From positions 5,311 to 42,045 of the forward strand of contig MEVD01000001.1 in the NCBI GenBank assembly GCA_001772865.1: a stretch of 36,735 bases of DNA. Direction: 5' to 3'. The stretch's first letter is position 1. Each line of letters begins with the position of its first letter. Made by a program: the position numbers and the translations under genes. The DNA is from a candidate division WWE3 bacterium RIFCSPHIGHO2_02_FULL_38_14. Its GTDB lineage: Bacteria > Patescibacteriota > WWE3 > UBA101185 > UBA10185. Below the pieces are notes generated by a model. It did no database searches, was not told the DNA's origin, and saw nothing but the letters and a program-made list of their open reading frames with translations. This document shows positions 3,593-9,372 of this stretch, piece after piece.

Positions 3593-5134
3593 TTATAATC
3601 TGCCTGATTCCTTCACCCATTTCTCAAAATCCTCTTTGGTTTTTACATTTTTAAAACTCTCTCTGGCCAAATCCGAAAATTCTTCCCATTTTTGTTCTAA
3701 GAAAGGTTTTACCGACGGTATATGTCTGGCTGCCCACAATTCGTCAACTACATGTAGAACATCATAAATATCCGTGCCCTGATTCAGCTTTATTATGGCA
3801 TCCCTCCACTTAATTGCCTTTTCAAAATCCTGTCTTCGGGCAGATTTATTCATTTCATCCTCAAACTCCAAGATTATCTGGTTATACCATTCCGGTGGTG
3901 TACGGACGCCAAAAGAATCTTTCATAAATGTCGAGGAATTCTCAAGGTGTTTCCTTCTTATATAACCGCTTCTCTGCCATTCAAAAGCCTGGTCTACTAT
4001 ATCTCTGTATAATTTCTCGGCCGTTTCCCTGGTTTTTGCTTCAAACTCCCCGGTATAAATTACTTCCCTCAAAGCAAATGCTCCCTGCTCCACCATTTCC
4101 AAACTCCACCAAGGCAAGGCGCTCGCCCACCAAAACTGGTCAGAGGCTAAGGCTTTATCCATTTTTTCCCGCGCGTTTTTCCAGGAATCCGTATCCTTGT
4201 CATTACAGCTTCCTAGTGTACTCAAACAAAATTCCACAAACTGCCATTGCAGATTATGAATCGGATTCTCGGGATTTTTCCATAAAATAAAGGATTTACT
4301 TTCGGTGTATTGGGTCCTTTCCCTATCCAGCCAAAAATCCTGTTCTTGATTGGTCCAGGTTGTAGGACGGAGGTTAACTTCTTCTACCTCTTTTACATCT
4401 TTTATAAGCCCGGAAGGATAAGCAGATTGCAGCTTATGCGATGCTAATAGTTCGAACAATACTTTTTCATATCCGATTCTATGGTGTCCGAAAGTCTCCG
4501 CGTCCATTACCGTAAACCAGTATTTATTTTTTTTCTGCAGATCCTGGGTTTCATACAAAAGATCTTCGCCGGAACGAACCACTGCACCAAGTATCAAGGC
4601 GCTTACCCTTTTATTTCTAAAGAACACAAACAACCCTGAATCATTACCCGTATATAATTTATCGGCTCCGGCTTCTTCAGTTCCATAAGACAGCTCGGGC
4701 GCAGCCAACCACTTGTATCCCAACTCCTTCACTACCTTCAATACTTTGTCATTTACAGCCATTTCAGGCGAGAAAAATCCATCAGGTTTATATACTTCGC
4801 CGAAGTATTTTTTATTTTCTTCATCATTTAGCTTTATTTGTCTTTCGATTTCATTTTCAGGAAGAAGAGGTAGAAAAGCGTGATACATTGCACTGCCGGT
4901 AAATTCTACAATGCCTTCTAACGCGAGAAGTTTTAAGCCGTTTATAACATCTTCATATCCGCGATCCAATAAAAGTTTGGTCAGCGCTCCGTTCATATTA
5001 ACTAAAGTTTTACTTTTTTTATATTGGGTAAATCCTTTAATCAAAGGACGGTAACATTCATTAACTATACGAAGCAAAATATCATCCTGCTGATTATACG
5101 GTTGATAGAAATGTAATAAGTTAATCCATTGCAT
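3593..5134 (-). CDS. GH57 family glycoside hydrolase/glucanotransferase with C-terminal UVR-like motif
   Basis: The 513-residue protein is a GH57 retaining enzyme acting on alpha-glucans (amylase, 4-alpha-glucanotransferase or branching activity). GH57 motifs are visible: H8-F-Y-Q-P near the N-terminus, GSAMYH at 80-85, FFSPEMA with the likely nucleophile E124, and MDAETFGHH with the likely acid D211. The C-terminal region contains, at about 421-452, EMNKSARRQDFEKAIKWRD followed by AIIKL. This closely matches the UVR motif of UvrB, UvrC and ClpC-type proteins and is not a known part of the GH57 catalytic core. The gene is 24 nt after the second GH57 gene and before glgA. The exact reaction is undetermined. 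Confidence 0.87.
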   Translation of the reverse strand: MQWINLLHFYQPYNQQDDILLRIVNECYRPLIKGFTQYKKSKTLVNMNGALTKLLLDRGYEDVINGLKLLALEGIVEFTGSAMYHAFLPLLPENEIERQIKLNDEENKKYFGEVYKPDGFFSPEMAVNDKVLKVVKELGYKWLAAPELSYGTEEAGADKLYTGNDSGLFVFFRNKRVSALILGAVVRSGEDLLYETQDLQKKNKYWFTVMDAETFGHHRIGYEKVLFELLASHKLQSAYPSGLIKDVKEVEEVNLRPTTWTNQEQDFWLDRERTQYTESKSFILWKNPENPIHNLQWQFVEFCLSTLGSCNDKDTDSWKNAREKMDKALASDQFWWASALPWWSLEMVEQGAFALREVIYTGEFEAKTRETAEKLYRDIVDQAFEWQRSGYIRRKHLENSSTFMKDSFGVRTPPEWYNQIILEFEDEMNKSARRQDFEKAIKWRDAIIKLNQGTDIYDVLHVVDELWAARHIPSVKPFLEQKWEEFSDLARESFKNVKTKEDFEKWVKESGRL

Positions 5135-5158: not shown

Positions 5159-6421
5159 TTAGAATAATCTATTTTCATATTTTAACATAATTTCTCGTAT
5201 CTTCGCACTTAAGGATATTATCTGATCGTGAATTTGAGGAAGCCCCAATGTATCGCCATATTTATGCCAAAGATTCAAACTGTTCTCAATCATATTTTTA
5301 CTAAAAAGAACCTCGCCTGTAGGGAGAACTTTATTGGATATCCACCAGAACTGGTCGCTGTTTATCACCATTAAAAGCAGGATTTTCTTTTTTAAAAATT
5401 TTCTTTCGGATTCATCTTGAATCTTTGACAGATATGAAAAATCCCAGATCGGAAGTGTTTCATTTCCGTCCGATATAGGCTTATAAATATTCTTATAATT
5501 ATCCAGGGCCAGCTTTACCATTTCCCATTGAATTTTATGGATTTCATTTTCCGGATGGTCCCACATAGGATACAAAATACCGGAACTTACTTCCGAATCG
5601 CTCGCCCCCCAGCTTGATTCTTTTATCTCCACTGATTCTCTATATTGGCCGGATTCAACCAGCTCGCTCACAGTTATTACTTCTATTTCACGGGATAACA
5701 GCTCCTCCAAAAAAGTATCCAGTATATAAATACCTTCTTTATAATGGTGGCCGAAAGTTTCTCCGTCCAGCACAATTACATGATCCGTATCTTTTCTTTC
5801 ACTTATGCCGGGATTTGTGAAATATAGCAGGTCTTTAACATTAATATCTCTTTTAAACGCCATAGCATTGCTAAGATCTCTGTCTCTGACCACAAGTTTT
5901 AAACCGGAGTCCTTTAAGGAATAAACTCCAGGTTTATGACCGCATGTTTCATCTGCAATAACCCATTCGTAACCCAAACTTTCAATAGCTTTTACCAAAT
6001 TGGAATTAAGTGCAAGTTCAGGAGGGAAAAATCCGTTCAGATTTTTTATCAATATGCCCGCTTCCCCTTCAAAGCCACTGTGTCTCCCCAAATAATATCC
6101 CGTCCCATATTCATTCAATATTATTTCGTCTTCGGCAACTTCCTGCGGAATTTTGGTTAAAATAGGATGATAGGCCGCGGTACCGGTTAATTCTATTTTT
6201 TCTGATTCTTTTAATTCCTTTAGATATTCTATCCACGTTTTATATCCATATCTATGTATTTGCTGTATTAAGCTAAGAGGAACATTAAGAGTGAATTTGG
6301 AGTTTCTTTTATTTTTTATTAAACGCAATAGAGGTAAATAACAGGCTTCATATATTTCTCTGAACGACTGTTCTGATTGAGTAATTGGTTGGTACAAATG
6401 TAACAATATTGCTACAGCCAT
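5159..6421 (-). CDS. GH57 family glycoside hydrolase/glucanotransferase (second copy)
   Basis: The 420-residue protein is a second GH57 member, related to but diverged from its neighbour and shorter at the C-terminus. It has H8-L-Y-Q-P, GTAAYH at 80-85, FFPPELAL with the likely nucleophile E135, and VLDGETFGHHYKEG with the likely acid D219. SDQFWWIS near the C-terminal helical domain is also shared with the neighbouring protein. It should cleave or transfer alpha-glucan chains. The paired enzymes may divide branching and debranching or transfer work, but this is inference. The ATG lies 6 nt after a GATAAT -10 element, so the mRNA may be leaderless. Confidence 0.87.
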   Translation of the reverse strand: MAVAILLHLYQPITQSEQSFREIYEACYLPLLRLIKNKRNSKFTLNVPLSLIQQIHRYGYKTWIEYLKELKESEKIELTGTAAYHPILTKIPQEVAEDEIILNEYGTGYYLGRHSGFEGEAGILIKNLNGFFPPELALNSNLVKAIESLGYEWVIADETCGHKPGVYSLKDSGLKLVVRDRDLSNAMAFKRDINVKDLLYFTNPGISERKDTDHVIVLDGETFGHHYKEGIYILDTFLEELLSREIEVITVSELVESGQYRESVEIKESSWGASDSEVSSGILYPMWDHPENEIHKIQWEMVKLALDNYKNIYKPISDGNETLPIWDFSYLSKIQDESERKFLKKKILLLMVINSDQFWWISNKVLPTGEVLFSKNMIENSLNLWHKYGDTLGLPQIHDQIISLSAKIREIMLKYENRLF

Positions 6422-6427
6422 TAACCT

Positions 6428-6456
6428 ATTATCTATAAAAAAGACCTTAAAGTCCA
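6428..6456 (-). promoter_or_regulatory. Promoter for the GH57 gene at 5159-6421 (likely leaderless)
   Basis: On the minus strand TGGACT (6451-6456), a 17-bp spacer and GATAAT (6428-6433) stand only 6 nt before the ATG at 6421. A 7-bp inverted repeat, CCTTAAA (6445-6451) and TTTAAGG (6473-6479), overlaps the -35 side and could be an operator. The promoter follows directly after the terminator of the small RNA. Confidence 0.55.
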
Positions 6457-6482
6457 GTAAGAGAATAGTTGATTTAAGGGGT

Positions 6483-6575
6483 AAAAAAATGAAGTCCAGC
6501 CTGGGAGGGACGATTTCTTATTCTCCTGCCCACAGAACAAGAATCTTTTCCTTCCCAGACTGGGCTTCATTTATA
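6483..6575 (-). ncRNA. Novel small hairpin RNA, about 93 nt, with its own promoter and terminator
   Basis: The intergenic space between the second glgA-like gene and a GH57 gene encodes a nearly continuous hairpin on the minus strand. A 22-nt outer stem is formed by arms 6549-6570 and 6489-6510, with two mismatches. An inner stem of about 12 bp has one bulge and one G-U pair, and the apical loop reads GTGGGCAGG. The 3' arm runs into seven T residues (minus strand, 6489-6483), a typical intrinsic terminator. A perfect sigma70-type promoter places the start near 6575. It lacks the GGAAGCAGC signature of SRP RNA and the central bubble of 6S RNA. The function is unknown; alternatively it could be only an elaborate terminator. 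Confidence 0.65.
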
Positions 6576-6581
6576 CATAGA

Positions 6582-6610
6582 ATTATAGCACTATATTATA
6601 GGTCTGTCAA
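6582..6610 (-). promoter_or_regulatory. Perfect consensus sigma70-type promoter of the small RNA
   Basis: On the minus strand TTGACA (6605-6610) is separated by exactly 17 bp from TATAAT (6582-6587). Both hexamers match the consensus fully, the only such case found in this window. The expected start, near 6574-6575, lies four to five nt before the hairpin and far from any coding start: the next gene begins at 6421, beyond the hairpin. Confidence 0.85.
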
Positions 6611-6677: not shown

Positions 6678-8252
6678 TTAAAAGAGTGCTGCTTCTATAC
6701 TGCGTGATTTATAGCCTTTTTTACTCTTAAATGAAATTGCTCTCTCATAAAGCCGCACATATTCTTTTGCACTATACTCCCAGCTAAAGTCACTCTTCAT
6801 CGCATTTTGCATCAATTTGTGCCATAGTTTCTTATTTTTATACAACTCAACTGCTCTAACGAGCTGGCCAAATAACGAGAACTCATTAAAATCAGTAAAA
6901 ACAAAACCATTTCCTGTACCTTTGCTCGAATCGAAGTTTTCAACTGTGTCAGCCAAACCTCCGACCTTCCTTACAATTGGTGCTGCTCCATACCTCATTG
7001 CTTCTATCTGAACTATGCCACACGGCTCGAATCTTGATGGGTACAATATGCAATCAGATCCTGAAAACAGAAGACGAGGCAAAGTAAAATTCGGATATGG
7101 ATGTATCCCTACTTTATTCGGAAATGTTGATTTAAGATGATTAAGCATATCCACCAGAGCCCCTTCTCCTCCACCGACCTGTACAAATTGTACGTCATAA
7201 TCTGTTAGTACATGGTATAAAGTTTGAACTATAAGGTCTACCCCTTTTTGCATGTCAAGTCTACCAACAAATCCCAGCAGTAAAGTGTTGTCACTGACAG
7301 GCAGGTCATACTCCTTCTGTAATGCGGTCTTGTTTAATTTTCTTAAACCCACGTTTCTTAAACTGTAATTTTGCTCTATAAGATTGTCGGTTTGGGGATT
7401 AAACTCATCATAATCCAGCCCATTAACAATACCGAATAATTTGCTTTTAACCTCAAGCAACAGTTTATCCAGACCCTCGCCGAAGTCCGGAGTTAGTATT
7501 TCTCTGGAATAAGTTTTAGAAACGGTGTTAACGGCGTCGGAATATAAAATTCCGCGTTTCATAAAATTCTGCGTATTAAGTCTGGGAGAAAAAAACGATT
7601 CTATCGAGGACTTGCCGTCATCAAAATCTAATTCCGAAACATATCTGTGGTCAAAATTACCCTGGAACCTCAAATTATGCATAGTAAATACGCTGGAGAT
7701 TTTGCTTAAAACTTTATCTTCCTTATAAACGGTTTTTAAATAATTTCCAACTATACCGGTATGCCAATCATTGCAGTGAATTATATTAGGTACAAAATCG
7801 CCGCATATTTTTATAAATTCTAAAGCACCTCTTGATAAAAGTGCCCACCTTGTGGGATCATCGCTGTAGCCATAAACATTTGCGCGTTTTTCATAATATT
7901 CCTGATTTTCCAGAAAATAAGTTGTTACACCGGCCAAATCTTTGGCGGCTTTTACATTGCATATAAGGTTTGGCAGTGTTTCGTCGTTGGTCGGTACTTC
8001 CAGTCCTTCACAAACCATCTCCAAACCATATTTTTCTTCATCTATAAATCCGAATTTAGGAATAAAAAGTCTTGCATCATGACCCATTCTCACCAATGCG
8101 CGTGATAAATAAGCAAGCACCATGGCAAAACCTCCCACTGAAGCATAAGGTGACACCTCGGCACCCACCAGCAAAATCTTGAGCTTTCTGTCCTGGCCAT
8201 CTTTTAAACTGCCTATTAGCTTTTTTTCAGGTTTATTTAAGTAACCTAACAT
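6678..8252 (-). CDS. GlgA-like GT5 glycosyltransferase, divergent donor motif
   Basis: This is a second glycogen/starch-synthase-like protein of 524 residues from the ATG chosen here. An in-frame TTG at 8279 would add nine residues. The C-terminal GT-B half is conserved: SRFEPCGIVQIEAMRYG and RKVGGLADTV, with NGLDYDEF and GRLDMQKGVD before them. The N-terminal KxGGL donor-site motif is changed to S38-V-G-G-F, losing the lysine that contacts the ADP-sugar in GlgA. It could use another nucleotide sugar or have another acceptor. An extended -10, TGGTAAAAT (8284-8292), gives a leader of about 25 nt without a Shine-Dalgarno sequence. Confidence 0.86.
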   Translation of the reverse strand: MLGYLNKPEKKLIGSLKDGQDRKLKILLVGAEVSPYASVGGFAMVLAYLSRALVRMGHDARLFIPKFGFIDEEKYGLEMVCEGLEVPTNDETLPNLICNVKAAKDLAGVTTYFLENQEYYEKRANVYGYSDDPTRWALLSRGALEFIKICGDFVPNIIHCNDWHTGIVGNYLKTVYKEDKVLSKISSVFTMHNLRFQGNFDHRYVSELDFDDGKSSIESFFSPRLNTQNFMKRGILYSDAVNTVSKTYSREILTPDFGEGLDKLLLEVKSKLFGIVNGLDYDEFNPQTDNLIEQNYSLRNVGLRKLNKTALQKEYDLPVSDNTLLLGFVGRLDMQKGVDLIVQTLYHVLTDYDVQFVQVGGGEGALVDMLNHLKSTFPNKVGIHPYPNFTLPRLLFSGSDCILYPSRFEPCGIVQIEAMRYGAAPIVRKVGGLADTVENFDSSKGTGNGFVFTDFNEFSLFGQLVRAVELYKNKKLWHKLMQNAMKSDFSWEYSAKEYVRLYERAISFKSKKGYKSRSIEAALF

Positions 8253-8283
8253 GTTGTTCTTTGTAAAGAGCAGATACAATTAG

Positions 8284-8355: not shown

Positions 8356-9336
8356 TCAATAGTTGGACACCATTGAATCCAGCTCAGATGCTAAATCGTT
8401 TTCACCATATTCCATCAGATCCGACTTCAGCTGTTTTTCAGATACTACAAACAATCCGTGCATTTCTTTTTTAGTTTGGAGTGCAGAGCCTGCTCTATCA
8501 GTAATTATACATAACTGTGCTTCTCTGGGATCTGCGGGCATAAGATTTAAAATCCTTTCAAAAAACTCTCTGTCCTGAGGTCTAACATAAAAATGCAACA
8601 ACGAGAATGGCTTTATAGGTTTGTGTAAAGACATTCCTGCGTTCATGGTAAAGGCATAATCTACATATGCCCTTCTAGCATTCTTATCAATATTTTGCGC
8701 AATTTCTTTAAGCCCTCCCAGCATACTTCTATAGTAATATAATTCAGTTTTCTCAACGTCTTTAAATTTTTCTCCTGAAAAATCAGATATGGATGAGGTA
8801 GTGCTTACGGGTTCAGCTTTCACTTGTGGGACCGGTTCAACGTCTGGAGCTGCAGTTTGCGCAGGTGTTTCTTCAGTTTCCGCGGTTTTAAACTTGCTTG
8901 CCGCTTCTCTGAATTTTGCCAGCCAGTCAACGGGTGATTCCTGTTCTTCTTTTTGAGCTTCCTGCTCGGCTGCCGGCCTTTCTTCAACTTCAGGTTCAGC
9001 AGGTACTTCTTCAACTTTTTGTTTTATAGGTTCTGACGGGTACTCCGGCTCTTCAGGAATTACTTTAATTTTTGCCATAGTCTTATGCTGTTGTGCTTCT
9101 TGCTGTAGGGCTTGTTGAGGTTGTTGCATTTGTTGTGTTTGAGAAACTTTACCGGAAGATCCATCGGGGTATAAAAAGTCCAATATATTCTGTTTTGAGA
9201 ACCTATGTCTCCCTGTTGCAGTTTTTACATCAGCTTTTAATTTATCTTCTTCCATATATCTGTAAACTGATCTCAAACTTACTCCCAAAATATCGGCAAC
9301 TTCTGTAGATGTATACAACTTTTCTTCTAAGTTCAT
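8356..9336 (-). CDS. MerR/excisionase-type HTH protein with unknown C-terminal domain
   Basis: From the ATG at 9336 the protein has 326 residues. Residues 1-55 form an HTH_17-like DNA-binding domain (YTSTEVADILGVSLRSVYRY, then TGRHRFSKQNILDFL). A Gln-, Glu- and Pro-rich linker of about 125 residues follows. The last 140 residues form a compact domain that I do not recognise, including LLHFYVRPQDREFFERIL and QLCIITDRAGSAL. The start is fixed by a promoter whose TTGACA covers the alternative upstream TTG codon at 9372. It is probably a transcription regulator; the C-terminal domain may sense a ligand or mediate oligomerisation. It is a monocistronic unit between the glucan cluster and the mreB operon. 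Confidence 0.75.
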   Translation of the reverse strand: MNLEEKLYTSTEVADILGVSLRSVYRYMEEDKLKADVKTATGRHRFSKQNILDFLYPDGSSGKVSQTQQMQQPQQALQQEAQQHKTMAKIKVIPEEPEYPSEPIKQKVEEVPAEPEVEERPAAEQEAQKEEQESPVDWLAKFREAASKFKTAETEETPAQTAAPDVEPVPQVKAEPVSTTSSISDFSGEKFKDVEKTELYYYRSMLGGLKEIAQNIDKNARRAYVDYAFTMNAGMSLHKPIKPFSLLHFYVRPQDREFFERILNLMPADPREAQLCIITDRAGSALQTKKEMHGLFVVSEKQLKSDLMEYGENDLASELDSMVSNY

Positions 9337-9344
9337 AATCTGAT

Positions 9345-9372
9345 CATATACATATGTATTATTACATGTCAA
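9345..9372 (-). promoter_or_regulatory. Promoter of the HTH gene (likely leaderless)
   Basis: TTGACA (9367-9372, minus strand), a 16-bp spacer and TATATG (9345-9350) place the start at about 9337-9338, next to the ATG at 9336. This supports 9336 as the start codon and rules out the in-frame TTG at 9372. Confidence 0.65.

Follow-up and report, generated by a model that had tools for sequence, protein, structure and literature searches.

A small RNA gene common to candidate division WWE3 (Katanobacteria), and previously uncatalogued, is well supported by the genome comparisons described here. It lies on the minus strand (6610-6483) of the window, the 36,735-nucleotide stretch of WWE3 DNA that was analysed, where a TTGACA-17-TATAAT promoter is followed by a rod-shaped hairpin of about 93 nt and then seven T residues. 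The favoured reading, given a probability of about two in three, is that of an independent gene for a trans-acting antisense small RNA whose loop would serve as a seed at start codons. Its mechanism and regulon are what we infer from sequence. WWE3 bacteria are tiny, host-dependent and mostly uncultivated. No paper on their regulatory RNAs was found in the literature searched.

Promoter, Transcript and Fold

The promoter (6610-6582, minus strand; TTGACAGACCTATAATATAGTGCTATAAT) is the sole perfect sigma-70 consensus within the window, with one match against 0.07 in shuffled sequences. The initial annotation had described it as free of mismatches and unique in the window; both points held, and an extended TG was found as well. 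Its perfection is shared by relatives only in part. The -35 box TTGACA (6605-6610) is identical in all 24 relatives, while the -10 box (6582-6587) keeps its TG in 21 and the exact TATAAT in just 7. Within the spacer lies a CCTATA element (6597-6602), present in 18 of the 24 relatives, which may be an operator. The combination TTGACAnnCCTATA is restricted to this small RNA gene in two complete genomes. A protein with a MerR-like HTH_17 domain is encoded at 8356-9372 of the window, and such a gene lies near the RNA family-wide as well as in G029, a genome of another family. It is a candidate for controlling the promoter of the RNA, in which the CCTATA element lies.

With its start placed some 7 nt past the -10 box, the predicted transcript is 93 nt long (6575-6483); it begins just before the stem and amounts to the whole hairpin, as had been proposed. 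A covariance model (R1) matches nearly the same interval (6482-6574, minus strand, 66.8 bits). The RNA is present once in the 941-kb genome. The seven T residues reported after the hairpin lie at 6489-6483 and, together with the stem, make up an intrinsic terminator. At least four T follow the stem in 21 of 24 relatives and at least five in 18; the run is poor in a few copies (L043, L058). An own promoter (24/24) joined to an intrinsic terminator (at least four T in 21/24) is one mark of a trans-acting small RNA.

The hairpin folds at -45.4 kcal/mol (z = -6.4), and none of 200 shuffles was equally stable. Its outer arms (6572-6549 and 6510-6487) form 8+11+3 bp with small mismatches and enclose an inner stem of 12 bp (arms 6545-6534 and 6524-6512), in agreement with the 22-nt outer and 12-bp inner stems first described. 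The apical loop in the fold is GUGGGCAGG, at 6533-6525.

Conservation and Covariation

The core of the small RNA was recovered by BLASTN in about 17 relatives, and a pattern scan returned named copies that were nearly all from candidate division WWE3. A covariance model built on 11 copies found the RNA, at a single place each, in 24 of 27 WWE3/Katanobacteria genomes belonging to the window's family; further matches in a genome were the antisense of the same hairpin, not second copies. Under stricter Infernal filters, 18 genomes from other families in the class gave no match, nor did the model match elsewhere in a set of 380 genomes from the phylum. The loop pattern was also sought in viral contigs and was absent from them.

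Compensatory change was seen at 36 of 39 pairs in 22 distinct sequences, among them all 26 outer pairs, in an alignment fitted to the model; an unfitted MAFFT alignment of 11 sequences gave 28 of 39. Cells of the fitted alignment were paired in 92% of cases, compared with 73% in shuffled and 43-55% in slid versions, every shuffle and slide falling far below. A covariance-model search of relatives for such changes had been suggested at the outset, and its outcome is strong. G-U pairs outnumbered A-C pairs (102 vs 20), which identifies the minus strand as the RNA strand. Variation is lower at the inner than at the outer pairs, and the upper stem is partly conserved in sequence. Invariance is confined to UGGGCAGG in the loop (6525-6532; seed UGGGCAG), identical in 23 of 23 sequences. 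A conserved unpaired seed, a second mark of trans-acting small RNAs, is therefore present.

Known RNA Families

With its size, its rod shape, a strong promoter and one copy per genome, the RNA recalls 4.5S RNA, and a divergent SRP or 6S housekeeping RNA was accordingly considered. Rfam scans of the window at gathering and at permissive thresholds returned no family, only microRNA-like chance matches. The covariance model of the bacterial small SRP RNA (RF00169), itself a rod of about 100 nt with a strong promoter and a single copy, found nothing in the genome from which the window comes, even with E relaxed to 10. The same genome has no Ffh, and the loop differs from that of SRP RNA, with no GNRA motif; SRP RNA identity was rejected on the missing covariance match and the missing Ffh. 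6S RNA (RF00013), which is rod-like and abundant, was absent from the window matches and from the permissive scan; the WWE3 RNA is half as long and lacks the central bubble. The RNA is also missing, along with the GH57 gene, from three genomes of the family. A divergent SRP or 6S RNA is thus extremely unlikely; the initial annotation had also set aside SRP and 6S.

RF00169 was not detected in any of 57 Patescibacteria genomes, the window's own included. No SRP54-family protein (Ffh/FtsY) scored over cut-off in the window's own genome or 56 relatives, where only P-loop-level matches below cut-off appeared; the same search was positive in 14 of 14 control genomes. These Patescibacteria may be without SRP.

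Genomic Neighbourhood

The RNA lies between a glgA-like GT5 gene (6678-8279; PF08323) and a GH57 gene (5159-6421; PF03065), all on the minus strand, so that the position first assigned to it is confirmed by Pfam. In the 24 RNA-bearing genomes of the family, it is always on the same strand as the GH57 gene and just 5' of it. The upstream gene is usually the glgA-like GT5. A second GH57 protein, encoded at 3593-5134 of the window, has a UvrB/UvrC motif at its C terminus (PF02151, E 6e-7).

Could the hairpin be only the terminator of the glgA-like gene? It has the anatomy of a terminator and starts about 106 bp beyond the end of that gene. A conserved promoter separates the two in 24 of 24 genomes, however, and the sequence of the loop is invariant. 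L021 and L027 have another gene upstream and still retain the RNA. This explanation is hardly credible, and the initial view of the hairpin as something other than the upstream gene's terminator stands.

A cis-acting leader, in which the hairpin would be a conditional terminator in the 5' UTR of the GH57 gene, is suggested by that gene being the invariant downstream neighbour and by the lack of a good T-run in the few copies mentioned above. The three RNA-less genomes of the family also have no GH57 match, although they are drafts in which gaps are possible; the RNA therefore appears to travel with the cluster. The GH57 gene, however, has a promoter of its own in many relatives, a TTGACA-nATAAT site located 3' of the hairpin and about 6 nt before the GTG or ATG. 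This spacing suggests a leaderless GH57 mRNA in WWE3 and counts against a shared leader. A GH57 promoter directly after the hairpin had been noted initially; it is clear in many relatives, but the window itself has only a weak promoter-like site (6428-6456, minus strand, 9/12 match) with the leaderless spacing. The predicted transcript begins at the stem, which leaves no space for an antiterminator, and in G029 it is the GT5 gene that the related hairpin precedes. Given the -35 box identical in 24 of 24 and the downstream GH57 promoter in many relatives, the RNA is best read as a separate small RNA gene, and a leader is quite improbable.

The Loop Complement at Gene Starts

The complement of the loop is CUGCCC. 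Its occurrence at gene starts was examined in three RNA-bearing genomes, two of them complete (G020, G009) and one represented by 220 kb (G008), with ORF starts called mechanically. Within -25 to +25 of starts, CTGCCC was found 22 times against 8.8 expected in G020, 19 against 7.5 in G009 and 6 against 1.6 in G008, an excess over the genome-wide expectation of 2.5-, 2.5- and 3.7-fold. It ranked first of 448 hexamers with at least five G or C in each genome, and the pooled count was 47 against 17.9 (Poisson 8e-9). The antisense hexamer GGGCAG was depleted on the same strand at starts. When the test was limited to intergenic sequence, CTGCCC ranked 1, 12 and 4 in the three genomes. The next base was preferentially A or G (CTGCCCA 3.6-fold, CTGCCCG 3.5-fold, CTGCCCT 2.2, CTGCCCC 1.4), as expected for pairing with the U of the loop.

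Between G020 and G009 orthologs, CTGCCC was the top shared G/C-rich hexamer at starts, with 8 pairs in -60 to +20 against a mean of 0.09. Some of these pairs are explained by the coding needs of an adjacent gene, and for this reason the within-genome and further tests were used. Many sites sit at the position expected of a ribosome-binding site (for example aaaCTGCCCtaATG and acaCTGCCCgATG) and others in the first codons; predicted duplexes with the loop range from -12.7 to -18.2 kcal/mol. Conserved complementary sites at translation starts, a further mark of trans-acting small RNAs, were thereby found. Two candidates and one control were rejected: the ftsZ site is the coding end of an upstream gene, as is the dnaB site in G020, most relatives lacking the latter; and G029 is no clean negative control, having 4 CTGCCC before starts against 1.15 expected and GGGCAGG-loop hairpins of its own.

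The RNA might instead bind a protein that recognises the loop and upper stem, in the manner of the CsrB/RsmZ sponges and CsrA, the CUGCCC signal then having another cause. The partly conserved upper stem and the less variable inner pairs speak for this, and a rod with one conserved loop, if abundant, would suit a protein ligand. Yet just one G/C-rich hexamer stands out at starts, and it is the exact complement of the loop, with the flank preference that pairing predicts. The loop has no ANGGA, the CsrA consensus, and tblastn with E. coli CsrA gave nothing convincing in the two complete genomes. This alternative is unlikely. An RNA chaperone such as Hfq is not universal for trans-acting small RNAs; tblastn with E. 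coli Hfq found no homolog in the two complete genomes, the best E being 0.14 for G020 and 0.98 for G009. The initial annotation had proposed a separately transcribed, unassigned RNA with a regulatory or a structural role; the predicted separate transcription is supported, and a regulator is favoured, since sites complementary to the invariant loop are conserved at the starts of mRNAs.

Predicted Targets and Mechanism

In G020, predicted targets identified by Pfam include PEP synthase, pyruvate kinase, the C-half of transketolase, GAPDH, glucose-6-phosphate isomerase (GPI), a PilB-like ATPase and a pilin. The transketolase site was found in G020 and G008 and the GPI site in G020 and G009, with differing flanks. 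For five central-carbon genes among 27 predicted G020 targets, the probability is 8e-5 to 1e-3 if 15-25 such genes are assumed among 775, a range that is our own estimate for a set picked after the targets had been seen; the enrichment is suggestive only.

The most detailed case is ppsA. Across 19 RNA-bearing genomes, synonymous conservation over 213 fourfold columns is highest at its codons 5-6 (ACT GCC), which take the top two places. GCC is used in 14 of 15, while it makes up 20% of Ala codons. At amino acid 7, Gln and His alternate, both CAN, and in G011 an indel shifts the codons and CTGCCCA is kept. Judging from these patterns, the ppsA site is under selection at the level of RNA or DNA sequence, not protein. 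Two observations count against a link with the RNA: the genome to which the window belongs has lost the site, and the RNA-less G018 keeps CTGCCC.

In the proposed mechanism, the strong sigma-70-type promoter would drive a single hairpin of about 93 nt ending in its own terminator. The stem would be a scaffold free to vary in sequence, displaying the 7-nt seed UGGGCAG in the apical loop. Target mRNAs would carry CUGCCC(A/G) in their first codons or ribosome-binding region; by pairing there, the seed would alter translation initiation, most simply by blocking it, so that the RNA probably switches target messages on or off. Likely targets would be the messages for PEP synthase, glucose-6-phosphate isomerase, GAPDH, pyruvate kinase and transketolase, with surface and type IV pilus genes. 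Because the RNA sits in a glucan gene cluster, it may tie carbon storage to central carbon flow. Here evolution alone delivers an RNA together with a rule for its targets that can be tested: CUGCCCA/G at the start codon, the first ppsA codons included. A putative global post-transcriptional circuit would thereby become testable in a laboratory strain with synthetic parts.

Possibly Related Hairpins

Searching for GGGCAG loops themselves picked out possibly related hairpins elsewhere. G029 has no model match, yet between a MerR-like HTH gene and a GT5 gene, one gene upstream of GH57, it carries a stable hairpin followed by a T-run, with GAAGGGCAGGACA as its loop. Two outgroup hairpins have the loop GAAGGGCAGGAC, in L216 near 9993 on the plus strand (G029 C1:329993) and in L204 near 4123 on the minus strand. 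The L216 hairpin is the one between the HTH and GT5 genes; with its T-run and its place in the glucan cluster, it is likely a divergent homolog of the small RNA.

A second hairpin, with loop GGGGCAG, lies just before rho in G009 (L153 near 1188, plus), in G020 (L129 near 10576, minus) and more loosely in G008 (L191 near 16670, minus); the identity of rho was confirmed by Pfam in G020 and G009. Its form GGGAGGTAGCnnGGGGCAGTGGCTAYCTCCC is stable and conserved (looser in G008) and has no Rfam match. It may be an autoregulatory element of rho or a paralogue of the WWE3 small RNA, and through its loop another RNA could share CUGCCC sites. As the source of the start-site signal it is less likely, since a GGGGCAG loop would favour C or U as the base after CUGCCC, where A and G are the favoured ones. 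The divergent form in the same cluster of another family and the paralogue-like hairpin before rho hint at a class older than the WWE3 family. Tentatively, and at rather less than even odds, this would be a Patescibacteria-specific class of single-hairpin RNAs with a GGGCAG loop, acting as chaperone-independent global regulators of carbon flow and pili.

Comparison with Known Regulatory RNAs

CsrB and RsmZ are sponge RNAs tied to carbon storage and central carbon metabolism, in which many GGA loops on stem-loops bind CsrA. The WWE3 RNA resembles them as a stem-loop RNA with a predicted link to carbon storage and central carbon metabolism. It differs in having one loop, without ANGGA, and CsrA was not found by tblastn.

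A second comparison is with RepG, whose host Helicobacter pylori, to our knowledge, does not rely on Hfq. The WWE3 RNA and RepG were compared by description. RepG has a second stem-loop, and its C/U-rich loop is directed at G-repeats (PMC8295292), whereas the WWE3 RNA is one hairpin in all, with a G-rich seed directed at CUGCCC. RepG acts in trans, the loop of its terminator hairpin being the seed that pairs with mRNA leaders (PMC8295292), and this use of a terminator-hairpin loop is what is proposed for the WWE3 RNA.
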